From: Balneolaceae bacterium | Lineage (GTDB): Bacteria > Bacteroidota > Rhodothermia > Balneolales > Balneolaceae | NCBI GenBank assembly: GCA_020832225.1 | Contig: JAFIFA010000059.1 | Coordinates: forward strand, 1 to 37,653 | DNA: 37,653 nt | Reading direction: 5' to 3' | Part shown: in pieces, positions 13,712 through 35,493 of the stretch | How positions within the stretch are numbered: the first letter of the stretch is position 1 | Layout of the letters: the number at the start of each line of letters is the position of its first letter | Made by a program: the position numbers and the translations under genes | Notes under the pieces: generated by a model | Databases searched by the model: none | What the model saw: only the letters and a program-made list of their open reading frames with translations | What the model was told of the DNA's origin: nothing

Positions 13712-13978
13712 TCCTTGCAATTACGACTATTTTCGCAAAAGTTAGCGCTTATGTCCCCTCACCCAAAAAAACTCTTTAGCAATTTGTGAACTCTGCTGTA
13801 ATGAGTTTCGGTTTTGGGGTTCATACATATAGAGCTGAGATGCAGCCACCACAGCCTGGCAAAAAGATTTCGACACGCTGCAGATTATCCCCGGGGTTGG
13901 TGAATGTTGCCTGTGGGAATTGTATTTTGTGAATCGAAATCGCGAGAAAACAGCGAATCGCTCAAACTTCAGGAAATC

Positions 13979-15685
13979 ATGATCAAGTTATTATACATCA
14001 AGGATTTTGCTCTTATAGATGAGCTGCAGGTCGAGTTTGAAGACGGCCTCAACATACTCACCGGCCAGACCGGAGCGGGTAAGTCGATTATTATCGGAGC
14101 CCTCAACATGATTTTGGGTGAAAGGGCGGATACAGATGTGATTCGTCAGGGTGCCGCAAAGGCGATCGCAGAGGCATCGGTGTTTGCCGGAGAGAACCAA
14201 CGTCTTGCAGTCCTCCTCGAAGAGAATGCTGTCGACTACAGCGAAGAGCTGATTCTGCGCAGAGAGATTCGTCAAAATGGCAGCCGCGCCTTCATTAACG
14301 ATACACCGGTCAATATTTCGGTGTTGCGGGAGGTGGGAGATCAGCTTGTGGACCTGCATGGCCAGCACGATCATCAGCTTCTGCTCAAGGATGAGAACCA
14401 CCGTGGCGTAATTGATCAGTTCGACTCGGTTCAGCCTCTTTTAGAAGAGTATCGAAAGGAGTATCGCGCGATGTCTGCTCTTCAGAAAGAGCTGCGCGAC
14501 CTGAAGCGGAAGGAGCGTGAGCTTCGGGAAAAAAGTGAGCTCTACCGCTTCCAGGTGAAGGAGCTGGAGGAGGCAGAACTTCGCCCGGAGGAAGAGGAGG
14601 AGATGGAGTCTGAGATGAACCTTCTCGACAATGCCGAAGATCTGGACCGAAAAGCGTCGGCCATTTCTGAGATCGGTAGCGGCGAAGATGTAAGTTTGAT
14701 GGAGCTCCTCAATCAGGTAAAGCTCAATCTGGAAGATATGGCACGGATTGAGCCGGAGTTTGATACCTACCTTGAGGAGGTTAACACCGCCCGCATTAGT
14801 ATTCAGGAGGCGATCCATTTTGCCGAGCGGTATCGAAGCCGGATCGAGTTTAACCCGGAAAGGTTGGAGAAGCTAAGAAAGCGTCAGTCTGAGCTGAACA
14901 GGCTCCGCAAAAAATATACCCGAACCATACCTGAGCTGATTCGCTACTACAATGAGATTAAGGCGGAACTGAACGTAGCCGAAAATTTCGATCTGGAAAT
15001 TGAGCGCATTGAGACAAAGATCTCTAAACAGGCTGAAATTCTGAAAAAAGCGGCCATTGCGCTTCATAAACAGCGCGATGCCGTTGGGAAGCAACTCTCA
15101 AAGGAGATTGCCGAGGCACTTGGAAATCTGGGTATCGGCCACGGACGGTTTGTGGCTCAAATAGAGTGGATGCACAACGATAGCGGTTGGATTGAGATCG
15201 ATGGCCGGTCGGTGGAGTGCAGCGAAGATGGCTGCGATGAGATCCGGTTCTTCATATCCACAAACAAAGGAGAAGAGCCGAAGCCACTCGCAAAGATCGC
15301 ATCAGGCGGGGAGATCAGCCGGGTAATGCTCTCGCTGAAATCGATTCTGGCGAAGGAGCATCATCTGCCGGTGATGATATTTGATGAGATCGATACCGGA
15401 ATCAGCGGAAATATCTCGGAGAAGGTGGGACGCGAGATGAGAAAGCTTTCAAGCTACTGCCAGATTGTGGCGATTACCCATCAGCCGCAGATCGCCAGTC
15501 AGGCGCACAAGCACTACAAAGTGGAGAAGGTGGAGGAGGGAGAGAGAACGATCACCCGAATCGTGCCGCTTTCGCAGGAGGAGCATATCCGCGAGGTGGC
15601 CGGATTGATGAGTGGAGAAGAGATTACAGACTCGGCACTTACCAGCGCCAAAGAGCTGATCAGCCGCAGCGGTATGAGTAACTGA
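13979..15685 (+). CDS. recN: DNA repair ATPase RecN
   Basis: RecN is an SMC-like ATPase that acts at DNA double-strand breaks and supports RecA-dependent recombination. The start at 13979 is preferred because MIKLLYIKDFALIDELQVEF is the conserved RecN N-terminus and AGGA lies eight bases upstream; an upstream ATG at 13904 adds 25 residues unlike the family. From the preferred start the protein has 568 residues, close to E. coli RecN (553). Walker A GQTGAGKS is at about residues 29-36. A coiled-coil arm rich in Glu, Lys and Leu occupies about 135-370, and the C-terminal signature and Walker B are seen at IASGGEISRVMLSLK and MIFDEIDTGISG (about 440-475). Confidence 0.95.
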   Translation: MIKLLYIKDFALIDELQVEFEDGLNILTGQTGAGKSIIIGALNMILGERADTDVIRQGAAKAIAEASVFAGENQRLAVLLEENAVDYSEELILRREIRQNGSRAFINDTPVNISVLREVGDQLVDLHGQHDHQLLLKDENHRGVIDQFDSVQPLLEEYRKEYRAMSALQKELRDLKRKERELREKSELYRFQVKELEEAELRPEEEEEMESEMNLLDNAEDLDRKASAISEIGSGEDVSLMELLNQVKLNLEDMARIEPEFDTYLEEVNTARISIQEAIHFAERYRSRIEFNPERLEKLRKRQSELNRLRKKYTRTIPELIRYYNEIKAELNVAENFDLEIERIETKISKQAEILKKAAIALHKQRDAVGKQLSKEIAEALGNLGIGHGRFVAQIEWMHNDSGWIEIDGRSVECSEDGCDEIRFFISTNKGEEPKPLAKIASGGEISRVMLSLKSILAKEHHLPVMIFDEIDTGISGNISEKVGREMRKLSSYCQIVAITHQPQIASQAHKHYKVEKVEEGERTITRIVPLSQEEHIREVAGLMSGEEITDSALTSAKELISRSGMSN

Positions 15686-17934: not shown

Positions 17935-18115
17935 CACGAATTTCAGTTGAATGAAATTACGTTCTTTTTCCTCTTTGTGATTATTGAGGTAATAAAGCTT
18001 CAGAGCTACTACTCTCAAATGTGTGAAGGGAGTCGGCAAGAGAAACGGGCTCCAAACAGAAGAGCTCCGTTAACCTGTTGCGCGAACGATTCTCAGGGAT
18101 ATGTACAAATTGTGT

Positions 18116-18134
18116 GTAAATGTTTTGAATTTAC
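18116..18134. promoter_or_regulatory. Inverted repeat upstream of umuD (possible SOS operator)
   Basis: GTAAAT (18116-18121), seven bases, ATTTAC (18129-18134). It lies 30-49 bases before the umuD start, where a LexA-type operator would be expected. The sequence is not a match to the E. coli or Bacillus SOS boxes, so the link to LexA is inference. Confidence 0.4.
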
Positions 18135-18164
18135 GGGTCGCACATATATTTTACATGCAAATAA

Positions 18165-18596
18165 ATGGAGACAGATATGATCACAGAAACAGTCCAATCG
18201 GCAGCGCGACAAGAACCACCTCTGAACCGGAAGAGAGAGCTGGAGACGGGATTTCCCTCACCGGCAACGGATCATTTGGAGGAGCGGCTCAATTTGAATG
18301 ACTACGTGGTTCGCCACCCGGTATCCACCTTCTTTTCAAAGGTGAATGGTGAGGATGAAGCGGGGCTTGGGCTCTCACCTGGCGATATTCTGGTTATCGA
18401 CCGCAGTCTCGCCCCACGCCACGACTCTCTGGTTATTGCAGATCTGGGTGGTGAGTATCGTGTATGCAGGCTTCTGAAAAGCGGACAAGAGTGGTTGTTT
18501 GAGCTGGGAAATGGCCGGCAAATACCGGTTCAGTTCGATGATGAATTCAGGTCTCCAATCTGGGGTCGGGTTACACACGTCATTAAATCCGTATAG
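18165..18596 (+). CDS. umuD: UmuD-like protein without the catalytic Ser-Lys dyad
   Basis: UmuD is the regulatory subunit of translesion polymerase V; normal UmuD cleaves off its own N-terminal arm when RecA filaments form. This 143-residue protein keeps the family pattern GFPSPATDHLEERLNLNDYVV (residues 29-49, with Thr28-Gly29 at the cleavage position), HPVSTFF (51-57), and PGDILVIDRSLAPRH (72-86). However, the GDSM motif reads GEDE at 62-65, so the nucleophilic Ser is Asp64. The VKRL motif reads VCRL, so the general-base Lys is Cys101. The 37-residue spacing equals that of E. coli Ser60-Lys97, so the alignment needs no gap. It is intact and just upstream of umuC. An alternative start is ATG at 18177. 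Confidence 0.85.
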   Translation: METDMITETVQSAARQEPPLNRKRELETGFPSPATDHLEERLNLNDYVVRHPVSTFFSKVNGEDEAGLGLSPGDILVIDRSLAPRHDSLVIADLGGEYRVCRLLKSGQEWLFELGNGRQIPVQFDDEFRSPIWGRVTHVIKSV

Positions 18597-18647: not shown

Positions 18648-19922
18648 ATGCTATCAGCCTTTGCCCTCATCGACTGCAACAATTTCTACGCCTCCTGCGA
18701 GCGGGTATTTGATCCCGGCCTCAGGGATCGGCCCGTCGTTATCCTCTCCAACAATGACGGCTGTGTAATCGCCCGCTCTTCCGAAGCGAAAGAGGTCGGG
18801 ATTCCTATGGGCATCCCTGAGTTTAAAGTGAGGCCGTTGATCTCCCGCCACAATATTGCAGTACGCTCTTCGAACTACGCGCTTTATGGAGATATGAGTT
18901 CACGGGTGATGGAGACCATCCGTTCGGTTACGCCGGACCTGGAGGTCTATAGCATTGATGAAGCGTTTGCGGGTCTGCATGGGCGATCGAAGAGAGAGAT
19001 TATGGAGATGGGGAGGGAGATCAGGCAAAGGGTTCGCCGCTGGACAGGCCTTCCTGTGTCGGTAGGGATTGCGCCAACCAAGACGCTGGCAAAGATTGCC
19101 AATGAGATGGCAAAGAGCTATAAGCAGCTGAATGGTGTGCTCTACGTTAGGAAGCCGGATCAGATCGGCCGTATGCTTCGAAAAACAGAGGTGGGTGATA
19201 TCTGGGGAATCGGGAAGAACTACACCGCAATGCTCGAGCGTCAGGGAATTACCAATGCACTGCAGCTGAGTCGGATGCCCGACAGCTGGGTTCGTTCCAA
19301 GTTGAAGGTGACCGGATTGCGAACGGTAAAAGAGTTGAGAGGCGAATCCTGCCTTACCATTGAGGAGTCCAGCGATCAACGAAAAGGAATTTTGAGCTCA
19401 AGATCGTTTGGCCGACCGGTTAAGAAGGTGGATGAAATTTCTGAGGCTGTTGCCACCTTCACGGCCCGGGCTGCCGAGAAGCTCCGCGCACAGGATTCCG
19501 TTGCATCTCAACTCACGGTTGTACTTGTAACCGACAAATATCGGAATCCGGGTCAGCCCTACAAGTTTGGTCACACGATTTCGCTTCCATCACCAACCGC
19601 ATCAACCAGTATGCTCTGCAGCCGCGCAACAGATCTGGCCAACACGCTTTTTGATGAGGGCAAAACCTACAAGAAAGCTTGGGTGATGCTGACGGGGCTG
19701 ATTCCCGAATCGTCGGTGCAGGCCGATCTTTTTATGGAGGAGCGCTACTCTGAAAGGGATCATAACCTGATGAAGAGCCTCGATCAGATCAATGCCAAAT
19801 TCGGGAACAGGACCTGCATGCCTGCCTCAACCGGCATCAGTCAGAACTGGCAGATGAAGCAGCAATATCTCAGCCAAAAGTATACGACCAGTTGGGATCA
19901 GCTTCTGGAAGTTAGGCTCTGA
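18648..19922 (+). CDS. umuC: Y-family DNA polymerase UmuC
   Basis: UmuC is the catalytic subunit of polymerase V, which copies past damaged bases. The palm motifs are intact: ALIDCNNFYASCE at about residues 6-18 with the first catalytic Asp, and YSIDEAF at about 101-107 with the second acidic pair. The finger motif NNDGCVIARSSEAK (about 35-48) is present. A helix-hairpin-helix thumb region (about 175-215) contains VGDIWGIGKNY, and the little-finger domain and UmuC C-terminal segment follow. The length of 424 residues equals that of E. coli UmuC (422). It is 51 bases after umuD in one operon, with a possible hairpin switch in the gap. Confidence 0.96.
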   Translation: MLSAFALIDCNNFYASCERVFDPGLRDRPVVILSNNDGCVIARSSEAKEVGIPMGIPEFKVRPLISRHNIAVRSSNYALYGDMSSRVMETIRSVTPDLEVYSIDEAFAGLHGRSKREIMEMGREIRQRVRRWTGLPVSVGIAPTKTLAKIANEMAKSYKQLNGVLYVRKPDQIGRMLRKTEVGDIWGIGKNYTAMLERQGITNALQLSRMPDSWVRSKLKVTGLRTVKELRGESCLTIEESSDQRKGILSSRSFGRPVKKVDEISEAVATFTARAAEKLRAQDSVASQLTVVLVTDKYRNPGQPYKFGHTISLPSPTASTSMLCSRATDLANTLFDEGKTYKKAWVMLTGLIPESSVQADLFMEERYSERDHNLMKSLDQINAKFGNRTCMPASTGISQNWQMKQQYLSQKYTTSWDQLLEVRL

Positions 19923-32310: not shown

Positions 32311-32988
32311 TCAGACTTTGATTGGGAGTACACTATCTTCAACCACAGCATAGACCCTGTCCGTTTCACCGGGATCAATATTGTGCGTTCCGGTAAAGCC
32401 TCCAAAAGCAGGGAGCAGGATCTCCTTTTCACCAATCAGAAAGCAGGGCAGGCGCAGAGACTGTCTTCCTCTTCCCTTTATTCGTATTGATGGATGGATA
32501 TGGCCGGAGATGAGCATTTCATCGTCACCGAGATCGGATATATCGTTTCGGTCATGAACCAATCTGAAGGGACCTGTAACAAACTCATCAACTACATCAA
32601 TATCTGCTTTCTCATAAAAGGAGGGGTGCAGCAGATCGTGATTCCCCTTCACCAAAAGAAGCGGGATGTCAAATTTTGCTCTCCACTCTTCAAACTCAAA
32701 CCACTCTCGATTGGCTTCGCTGTGGAAGAGGTCACCGAGTACGATTAGACGTTTCGGGTTCTTGTCCCGTATCAATGAGCCAAGACGATCCAGATTGTTG
32801 CTGTTGATGGCACCAGGGGCCGGAATACCGTGCTTTCGGAAATGTCCTGACTTGCCAAGATGGATGTCGGAAAGGATCAGCTCTCTGCCTTTCGGTAGAA
32901 ATATCGCCTTCTCGGCCAGGAGCAGCAGTTGCTCACCTGCCACTTCAACTGGTGTCTCTGATCTGGATTCAGTTCTGTTATCATTCAT
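32311..32988 (-). CDS. pdeM: Ligase-associated metallophosphoesterase PdeM
   Basis: PdeM belongs to a calcineurin-like phosphoesterase family found beside ATP-dependent DNA ligases, a DEXH helicase and a metallo-beta-lactamase-fold exonuclease in bacterial DNA repair clusters. The metal-binding motifs are complete: SDIHLGKSGHFRKHG (about residues 41-55), LGDLFHS (about 85-91), GNHD (about 115-118) and GHIHP (about 161-165). The length of 225 residues is normal. It starts 12 bases after the helicase stop and shares its operon. The ligase and exonuclease genes of the usual group are not in the window. Confidence 0.92.
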   Translation of the reverse strand: MNDNRTESRSETPVEVAGEQLLLLAEKAIFLPKGRELILSDIHLGKSGHFRKHGIPAPGAINSNNLDRLGSLIRDKNPKRLIVLGDLFHSEANREWFEFEEWRAKFDIPLLLVKGNHDLLHPSFYEKADIDVVDEFVTGPFRLVHDRNDISDLGDDEMLISGHIHPSIRIKGRGRQSLRLPCFLIGEKEILLPAFGGFTGTHNIDPGETDRVYAVVEDSVLPIKV

Positions 32989-33000
32989 GGAAGAGTGATA

Positions 33001-35493
33001 TTAATCCTTTTTGAGCTCTTTCTGCATTCGAAGTATTCGATCGGCCAGCTTTTCGGAGGAGAGCCGTTCACGCAAACGATCTGCATAGATTGGAAAGGCA
33101 AACGGGGAGAAGCGATCCACCTCTTTTAGAACGATTTTCTGACCGGCTATTCTCTGCAGCACCCGTCTAAGCCTCGCTTCATCAAGCTGATCATTCAATA
33201 CCTCATCATACGCCTGCTGCAGCAGGAGATGGTCCGGCTCATGCTCGGAGAAGACATCAAAAAAGAGACCGGACGACATCTGCAGATGGCGACCCTGTTT
33301 TCTGTTGCCGGGAAAGCCTGGGAATACAAGACCTGCAATCCGGCTGATGCCACGAAATCGGCGCTTGGCCAGCTCCGTATCGTTTAGGCTTGCCATGATG
33401 TCGCGAATCAGGTTCTCGTCTGAAAAGAGATCCTTTTCGAGGGCCTCTTCAATGGGGATATCCTTATCTGATAGCAGCTCGAAGCCGTAGTCATTCATCG
33501 CAATGGAGAATGTGATTGGCATCAGCTTTGAGATGCGATGCGCTACCAGTGCCGACATCCCCTCATGCACATAACGTCCCTCAAAAGGGAAGAAAAAGCA
33601 GTGGCAACCCTCTTTAGACCACGACTTCTCGATCAACAGTTCGTTGTCATCAGGCAGGGCAGAGCGCTCTCGTTGAACATCAAATAGCGGCTTGATCGTC
33701 TCCATCTCAATGCTGGTTGAAGAGCCGTCGATCGTCTCATGTAGTTTTTTTCGCAGCAGATCAGACATGTTGGATGAGAGAGACATCCGTCCGCCCATAT
33801 AGCTGGGCACCTTGCTGCTGGTTCCTTTCGTCTTGCGAACAAATGCCGTCATATCCTTAATCTTGACCAGCTCCAGATTGCGCCCTGCAAACCAGAAGGT
33901 GTCGCGGGGGTTGAGCTGTGATAGGAACCACTCCTCGATTCGGCCCAGGGTGCCGCCTTTCAGGTATTTCACGCGCAGCATGCTGTCTCCGGCAATGGTG
34001 CCAATCGTCATCCGGTGCCTGCGAGCAATCTTTCGATCGTAAACCCGAAGCCTTCCTTCCTCGTCCGGTTCGGCCTTATTAAACTCATCGTACCGACTCA
34101 GTGAGCTTCCGCCCGACTGTATGAACTGCACGATCCACTCCCACTCATCACGCCGCAGCGTCTGATAGGCGAAGGTGGATGTCACCTCCCGAAAGGTCTC
34201 TTCCGGCTCAAACCCATCAGATACAGCGAGGGTAACGAGATACTGAATGAGAACGTCAAAAGGTTTGAGTACGGGAATGCGGTCTTCAACCAGCTCTCTC
34301 TCCGTGGCCTCCTTAAGCGCTGCCGCTTCAATCAGTTCAAGTGCGTGGGTGGGAACGAACCAGATGGAGCTGAGGGTGTCGGGCTGGTGACCACTTCGCC
34401 CGGCACGCTGCAGAAAACGGGATACACCTTTCGGGCTGCCGATCTGTATCACGCGGTCGACAGGAGCGAAGTCAACCCCTAAGTCAAGACTCGATGTGCA
34501 TACCACGGTTTTTATGGTGCCGTCGTGGAGCGACTCCTCCACCCACTCCCTGATTTTGTGATCGAGCGATCCGTGATGAAGCGCGATCGAACCAGCAAGA
34601 TCTGGTTTCTGCTCCAGCAGCTGCTGAAACCAGATCTCGGACTGGGCACGGGTGTTTGTGAATATCAGGGTTGAGCCCTCATGTTCGAGTATGGGAAGAA
34701 CTTTGTGAATGAGATTGATGCCGAGATGCCCTGCCCACGGAAATGTCTCAACGCTTTCGGGCAGAACGGTCTCTACGTTGATCCGTTTTTTTATTCCCGA
34801 TTTGATGATCCTGCTCTTCTCCGGGCGATCAGGCCCGAGCAGCATCCCAAGTGCCTCATCCAGATTGCCGATGGTGGCAGATATCCCCCATACCTGCAGA
34901 TCCGGGTTGAGTCCCCTCAGGCGGGAGAGGGCTAGTTCGGCCTGAGTGCCGCGTTTGGAGCCGATCAGCTCATGCCACTCATCTACCACGACACTTTGCA
35001 GTGTTTTAAACCGGCGATCGTATCCCTTTTGGGCGAGCAGCACATGCAGGCTTTCGGGTGTGATGATGAGAACCTCCGGCAGCTGTTTCTTCTGCTTCTG
35101 TTTTACGGATGAGGAGACGTCACCGGTTCGCCTCTGCACACTCCAAGGAAGGCCGAGCTCATCAACGGCCGTCTGCATCGCTTTTTCAAGATCTCTTGCC
35201 AGAGCACGAAGCGGAGTGACCCAAAGCAGCTGGATGCCGTTTTGCTCAAGTTCACCGTAGGTTTTTGGATGTTCATCGATCCACCTCATCAGTACGGGAA
35301 GGAAAAGCGCGAACGTTTTACCGCTGCCGGTAGGTGCATTTAGCAGTCCGAACTCTCCATTTAGCGAGGCGCTCCAGACGTTTCTCTGCCACTCAAAAGG
35401 TTTCCATCCCTTTTGGTTAAACCACTTCTCGATCAGAGACTCAGAAAGTGAAGACATGTTCAGGTTTAATGTGCGATTCAGACACTCTACCAA
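33001..35493 (-). CDS. Ligase-associated DEXH-box DNA helicase (Lhr type)
   Basis: This is a superfamily 2 helicase of the Lhr type that accompanies bacterial DNA ligase/PdeM clusters and acts in DNA repair. Walker A APTGSGKT, the DEWH box (in VVDEWHELIGSKRG), SAT (ISATIGN) and motif VI QRAGRSGH are all present in the first 400 residues, followed by a long C-terminal region with the Lhr core extension. The first ATG is at 35493, but the ATG at 35457 (MSSLSESLIEKWFNQKGW) fits the family start better and would give 818 residues. It is the first gene of a leftward three-gene operon with pdeM and a small membrane protein, and is divergent from acs. Confidence 0.92.
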   Translation of the reverse strand: MVECLNRTLNLNMSSLSESLIEKWFNQKGWKPFEWQRNVWSASLNGEFGLLNAPTGSGKTFALFLPVLMRWIDEHPKTYGELEQNGIQLLWVTPLRALARDLEKAMQTAVDELGLPWSVQRRTGDVSSSVKQKQKKQLPEVLIITPESLHVLLAQKGYDRRFKTLQSVVVDEWHELIGSKRGTQAELALSRLRGLNPDLQVWGISATIGNLDEALGMLLGPDRPEKSRIIKSGIKKRINVETVLPESVETFPWAGHLGINLIHKVLPILEHEGSTLIFTNTRAQSEIWFQQLLEQKPDLAGSIALHHGSLDHKIREWVEESLHDGTIKTVVCTSSLDLGVDFAPVDRVIQIGSPKGVSRFLQRAGRSGHQPDTLSSIWFVPTHALELIEAAALKEATERELVEDRIPVLKPFDVLIQYLVTLAVSDGFEPEETFREVTSTFAYQTLRRDEWEWIVQFIQSGGSSLSRYDEFNKAEPDEEGRLRVYDRKIARRHRMTIGTIAGDSMLRVKYLKGGTLGRIEEWFLSQLNPRDTFWFAGRNLELVKIKDMTAFVRKTKGTSSKVPSYMGGRMSLSSNMSDLLRKKLHETIDGSSTSIEMETIKPLFDVQRERSALPDDNELLIEKSWSKEGCHCFFFPFEGRYVHEGMSALVAHRISKLMPITFSIAMNDYGFELLSDKDIPIEEALEKDLFSDENLIRDIMASLNDTELAKRRFRGISRIAGLVFPGFPGNRKQGRHLQMSSGLFFDVFSEHEPDHLLLQQAYDEVLNDQLDEARLRRVLQRIAGQKIVLKEVDRFSPFAFPIYADRLRERLSSEKLADRILRMQKELKKD

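Follow-up and report, generated by a model that had tools for sequence, protein, structure and literature searches.

The UmuD homologue encoded in the window (the whole stretch of 37,653 nucleotides analyzed here, contig JAFIFA010000059.1 of GenBank assembly GCA_020832225.1 from a Balneolaceae bacterium) has lost both residues of the Ser-Lys catalytic dyad, and in every other intact UmuD of its family that was compared the dyad is missing as well. In the textbook view, UmuD self-cleavage delays mutagenic polymerase V (Pol V), so that it becomes active only late in the SOS response. From the sequence comparisons we consider it likely that, in Balneolaceae, UmuD acts with UmuC directly in its uncleavable, full-length form and that control of Pol V has moved to LexA-regulated transcription.

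Gene, start site and fold

The positions of the gene that are discussed in the text are:

18165, + strand: alternative umuD start ATG (ORF 18165-18596; 143 aa, 143 codons)
18167-18170, + strand: Shine-Dalgarno-like GGAG ahead of ATG 18177, from the sequence
18177-18596, + strand: umuD homologue without catalytic dyad, 139 aa (ORF, UmuD match, fold match, GGAG and the starts of relatives)
18246-18251, + strand: Thr24-Gly25 at the former scissile bond (E. coli has Cys-Gly, other Bacteroidota have Ala-Gly)
18354-18356, + strand: codon GAT of Asp60 at the nucleophile (Ser60) position, by alignment
18465-18467, + strand: codon TGC of Cys97 at the general-base (Lys97) position, by alignment

The open reading frame 18165-18596 is intact. 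Its true start is probably the ATG at 18177, as judged by the GGAG at 18167-18170 and by an equivalent methionine in relatives. With this start the residues of interest become Thr24/Gly25, Asp60 and Cys97, and the numbering equals that of E. coli UmuD. An earlier, sequence-only reading of this DNA had called the replaced residues Asp64 and Cys101, which holds for ATG 18165 but not for the probable start. Its central observation, Asp and Cys in place of Ser and Lys at a spacing of 37 residues, agrees with our alignment to E. coli: GDSM has become GEDE and VKKL has become VCRL, with the same distance in between as for Ser60 and Lys97.

The window protein matches E. coli UmuD over residues 26-142 (E 1e-20) and scores above the cut-off of the Pfam model Peptidase_S24. 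It stays below the cut-offs of the NCBIfam UmuD model NF007621 (98.5 bits, cut-off 110) and of the HumD model (72.8 bits, cut-off 120). An AlphaFold model (pLDDT 81) was superimposed on UmuD' (PDB-entry 1ay9) with a Z-score of 13.1 over 105 residues. The two chains run in register (model residues 32-139, chain residues 32-138), which leaves no room for a hidden shift of the active site. The best matches found by Foldseek and VIA-align were UmuD and UmuD'. In both the window protein and a cleavable control the N-terminal arm was modeled with low confidence. With its S24 fold, its replaced catalytic residues and the purifying selection described below, the window UmuD is an S24-fold pseudoprotease.

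A Ser and a Lys relocated within the fold, a possibility already raised in the sequence-only reading, were rejected by this in-register alignment together with residue conservation. The four lysines of the window protein (19, 55, 101 and 137) are not conserved in Balneolaceae relatives, and the conserved serines Ser28 and Ser77 are common to most cleavable relatives. An internal start yielding UmuD' directly was likewise discarded, as there is no in-frame methionine between the start and Gly25. A Pfam scan detected no N-terminal DNA-binding domain of the UmuDAb type, and only 24 residues precede the former cleavage site. HumD-type proteins lack the arm. The window UmuD instead has a translated arm of 24 residues (22-29 in relatives) and is therefore not of this type, although it shares with HumD and other naturally short UmuD' proteins that cleavage is not needed.

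Loss of the dyad, the cleavage site and arm docking

Balneolaceae are salt-loving bacteria. UmuD sequences were collected from 129 genomes belonging to the order, from 395 belonging to the phylum and from named genome contigs, and 39 distinct intact Balneolaceae UmuDs were compared with 74 UmuDs from other Bacteroidota. The Ser-Lys dyad is absent from 39/39 of the former, while the latter carry S/K in 73 cases and S/R in one. The Balneolaceae pairs at positions 60/97 are A/R (21), D/C (5), G/R (4), S/C (3), E/C (3) and, once each, N/C, G/C and E/R. Ser60 is thus retained in three proteins, and position 97 is always Arg or Cys. All 13 members of the window's sub-clade have Cys97 and the sister sub-clade carries Arg97. 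This agreement among relatives also disposes of a sequencing error as the explanation.

Cys97 is the only cysteine of the window UmuD and, being invariant in the sub-clade, might be thought to form a new catalytic center with Asp60 in a role-swapped protease. We regard this as scarcely credible. In the Cys97 proteins, position 60 is occupied variously by Asp, Glu, Asn, Gly and Ser. The residue at 97 is Arg in the sister sub-clade, the cleavage site has changed, and nothing found here places His134 or any other residue as a base.

The residue before the scissile Gly (P1) is Thr in 37/39 Balneolaceae UmuDs and Ala in 74/74 of the others. The sequence-only reading had described the cleavage region as retained; the GFPSPA segment is indeed present, whereas P1 is neither Ala nor Cys. 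The same Ala to Thr exchange before the scissile Gly is known from the lambda repressor mutant A111T (ind-), in which RecA-driven self-cleavage is abolished and induction is about 1000-fold lower (PMC4752277). Unlike the natural UmuDs, this is a laboratory mutant with an intact Ser-Lys dyad. The hydrophobic-Pro-hydrophobic arm motif, equivalent to TFPLF in E. coli, is found in 0/39 Balneolaceae UmuDs as opposed to 56/74 others. Column statistics show that positions 61, 95 and 109-111 are also lost or changed. Met61 and Thr95 are neighbors of the dyad, and most of the Arg97 sub-clade still has Met61; 109-111 hold the Pro and Asn of the PEN loop, which are lost. Judged by these alignments, Balneolaceae UmuD has neither nucleophile nor base, its catalytic loop and cleavage site are gone, and so is arm docking; we infer that the protein is uncleaved in the cell. 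The earlier conclusion that it cannot cleave itself is well supported by what has been lost across the family, namely dyad, P1 residue and arm motif. Most arm codons evolve under constraint (dN/dS about 0.04-0.2, a few cases apart), which implies that the arm serves some function.

Three fates had been offered for the protein: control by LexA in trans, control by another UmuD, or persistence in the uncleaved form. A second UmuD is excluded in the genome as assembled (96% complete), where LexA is the only other S24 protein. This LexA keeps Ala-Gly, Ser and Lys and is catalytically intact by sequence, the arm of 22-29 residues is still there in the family, and cleavage of one subunit by another is known for E. 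coli UmuD. UmuD' might therefore still arise through LexA, acting under the control of RecA, or through some unrelated protease. We consider such cleavage in trans improbable: the substrate side is lost as well, with the lambda A111T-like Thr at P1 and without the arm docking motif, there is no second UmuD, and LexA is not known to cut UmuD. Persistence in the uncleaved form is the favored one of the three.

Single UmuD-like proteins from other Bacteroidota families (L159, L169, L172 and L173) have R/R, A/R or E/R in place of S/K. They are possibly further losses or paralogues.

UmuC, selection and linked fate

The polymerase gene follows directly:

18648-19922, + strand: umuC, encoding a Y-family polymerase with catalytic Asp, YSIDE and a QADLF clamp motif

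It starts 51 bp past umuD and is normal, as had been stated. In Balneolaceae UmuC the catalytic Asp and YSIDE are kept, and usually the QxxLF clamp motif too. In two Balneolaceae loci, L020 (1977-2381) and L022 (2029-2385), a small gene which by eye resembles that for the four-helix-bundle protein of S23 rRNA intervening sequences lies between umuD and umuC.

Pairwise dN/dS values of the UmuD core are mostly 0.03-0.2 (NG86, pairs with usable dS). Among 92 Balneolaceae genomes both genes are intact in 38, only UmuD in 2, only UmuC in 1 and neither in 51. That umuD is a decaying relic could be argued from broken copies in three genomes of one genus (G081, G398 and G227) and from the free variation of position 60 in the window's sub-clade. 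The selection data contradict this very improbable reading: 40 copies are intact with dN/dS well under 1, promoter and LexA box are conserved, and loss of umuD coincides with loss of umuC. The earlier judgment that decay is unlikely is well supported by the purifying selection and the co-occurrence with UmuC.

The two genes share their fate even where they are unlinked. In genus g7, umuD (L014, L017, L021 and L069) lies, as assigned by eye, upstream of genes for a TetR-like regulator and a UbiB/AarF-like kinase, and umuC is found elsewhere, near a contig end. Both genes are intact in four g7 genomes and both are absent or broken in eight. That unlinked genes are kept or lost together is an argument for the uncleavable UmuD still working with UmuC.

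In G305 and G410, both from the window's genus (loci L004, L049 and L137), umuC is cleanly deleted and umuD is kept with its LexA box. Here UmuD is changed over residues 23-37; the GFPSPAxDHLE segment, otherwise nearly invariant in Balneolaceae UmuD, reads DYPAPVRNALG, while the remaining protein is conserved. The comparison suggests that this segment contacts UmuC rather than serving cleavage.

These orphan genes bear on a reading in which UmuD is locked in a full-length, non-mutagenic role as a polymerase manager that restrains UmuC and DinB for checkpoint or fidelity purposes. They evolve with a dN/dS of about 0.05 in genomes that contain a DinB-like polymerase. E. coli full-length UmuD has such roles, uncleaved S60A UmuD gives little UV mutagenesis (PMC5342242), and UmuD modulates DinB according to work cited in PMC9578287. 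We nevertheless consider a manager role unlikely. UmuC appears from its sequence to be conserved as an active polymerase, UmuD normally disappears together with UmuC, and the residues that hold the E. coli arm closed are lost in Balneolaceae. G305 and G410 are, moreover, atypical, since their GFPSPAxDHLE segment is broken.

Predicted LexA control

Two predicted LexA boxes precede the operon of umuD and umuC:

18100-18119, - strand: second LexA-box-like site TTACACACAATTTGTACATA (17/20; 0.00 expected by chance)
18138-18157, + strand: LexA box TCGCACATATATTTTACATG (16/20 to the Balneolaeota consensus, PMC7739468)

The Balneolaeota LexA box TTACACATATTTTWTACATA was found and gel-shift tested in earlier work, with polymerase V in the regulon, and all comparisons here refer to the consensus given in that paper (PMC7739468). 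The site at 18100-18119 is the only one in the window with at most three mismatches to it. A LexA box is predicted at 35/39 Balneolaceae umuD genes, mostly 14-34 bp before the start; among the 39 scanned, none was detected at the four g7 genes. The lexA gene of the window genome has a box of its own (18/20). The retained box, the altered cleavage site and the extent of the loss over the whole family are points absent from the sequence-only reading.

Origin of the loss and a second family

A tree was built from the partner protein UmuC, which does not contain the trait. In it Balneolaceae (f1) form one clade (support 100/99), placed next to f2 (98/92), a cleavable S/K family from their own order. 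With UmuC and the UmuD core combined, trait columns removed, the grouping with f2 has a support of 99/98.

A second Bacteroidota family, f23 (L108, L112, L146-L150, L152-L154 and L156), shows the same combination. P1 is Thr in 9/10 genomes, together with A/R (eight) or S/R (one), and in eight of these nine umuC lies beside umuD. The tenth genome (L094) has S/K with Ala at P1. In L108 and L112, the two loci that were fully read, GFPSPA is replaced by GFGAAA. Family f23 branches far from Balneolaceae and adjoins the S/K family f37. The two losses were thus probably independent, as judged by these trees. A single origin is disfavored by the trees but not rejected in the AU test (p = 0.11 for UmuC and 0.097 for UmuC with UmuD). 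Viral UmuDs were dismissed as a source of the trait, as 67/70 keep Ser and Lys.

A lone S/R UmuD occurs in family f14 (L081/L145). In Balneolaceae, in f23 and in this case Lys97 was lost while some members still had Ser60, which suggests that the catalytic base goes first. It is an evenly balanced proposition that in at least two Bacteroidota lineages UmuD lost protease, cleavage site and arm docking in step and turned into an obligatory full-length subunit whose arm has taken on a new role, which would leave the activity of the mutagenic polymerase to transcription alone.

Proposed mode of action

The sequences document that the dyad, the P1 residue, the arm proline and the PEN loop are missing; they also document an intact UmuC, the LexA box, selection and linked fate. 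From this we propose the following for Balneolaceae. The Balneolaceae-type pseudoprotease would be unable to remove its N-terminal arm. Once LexA is inactivated, UmuD would be made together with UmuC. The full-length dimer would then assemble with UmuC, most likely already in a UmuD'-like state, because the contacts that would keep the arm on the protein body are gone. The proteolytic switch of Pol V would have been dropped, so that control would lie in LexA-regulated transcription and presumably in RecA and protein turnover.

The closest experimental counterpart is the E. coli UmuD mutant T14A/L17A/F18A (UmuD 3A), in which arm docking is broken and which is uncleavable, yet mimics UmuD' (PMC5342242). 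Like this mutant, the natural protein would have a full-length, uncleavable arm that no longer docks. Unlike it, the mutant is a laboratory construct that retains Ser60 and Lys97, and the UmuD'-like function of the natural protein is deduced by analogy. Full-length UmuD could be inhibitory here too, because S60A UmuD of E. coli gives little UV mutagenesis; that protein has a near-normal arm (PMC5342242). By analogy with UmuD 3A, the UmuD'-like state is preferred over an inhibitory one, and it is this state, with an active Pol V, that we infer for Balneolaceae.

The window protein resembles E. coli UmuD in fold (Z 13.1 to 1ay9), length (139 aa), 24-residue arm, GFPSPA segment, position of the gene ahead of umuC and predicted LexA control. 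It differs by Asp60/Cys97 instead of Ser60/Lys97, by Thr-Gly instead of Cys-Gly, and by the absence of a TFPLF-type docking motif and of a PEN/PMN loop. SipA of Streptococcus pyogenes (Asp48/Gly85) and CI of phage 186 also have the superfamily fold without a working dyad, and SipA carries Asp at the nucleophile position as the window UmuD does (PMC12984324). Unlike UmuD, neither is a polymerase subunit: SipA is a pilus-assembly protein and CI a phage repressor. S24-fold pseudoproteases are thus already known, and the uncleavable UmuD family would be the new part. In the literature searched we found no report of such a natural family or of a UmuD without the dyad, and the available parts of the SOS literature on these groups (including PMC7739468) contain no mention of one.

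One entire bacterial family, and to all appearances another, has kept umuDC without self-cleavage. Together with the cleavable sister family this offers a natural comparison for testing the purpose of cleavage, and ready-made uncleavable UmuDs are at hand for structural work on Pol V. The annotation "autoproteolytic subunit" is probably wrong for these umuD genes, and Balneolaceae Pol V is probably controlled only by the amount made.

Neighboring repair genes

About 2.5 kb of DNA carrying functionally different genes separates umuDC from recN (13904-15685, + strand), which lies upstream. No match with at most three mismatches to the LexA consensus was observed near recN. At the other end of the window (32311-35493, - strand) we found a ligase-associated DNA damage response pair, consisting of the endonuclease PdeM (TIGR04123) and a DEXH helicase (TIGR04121).
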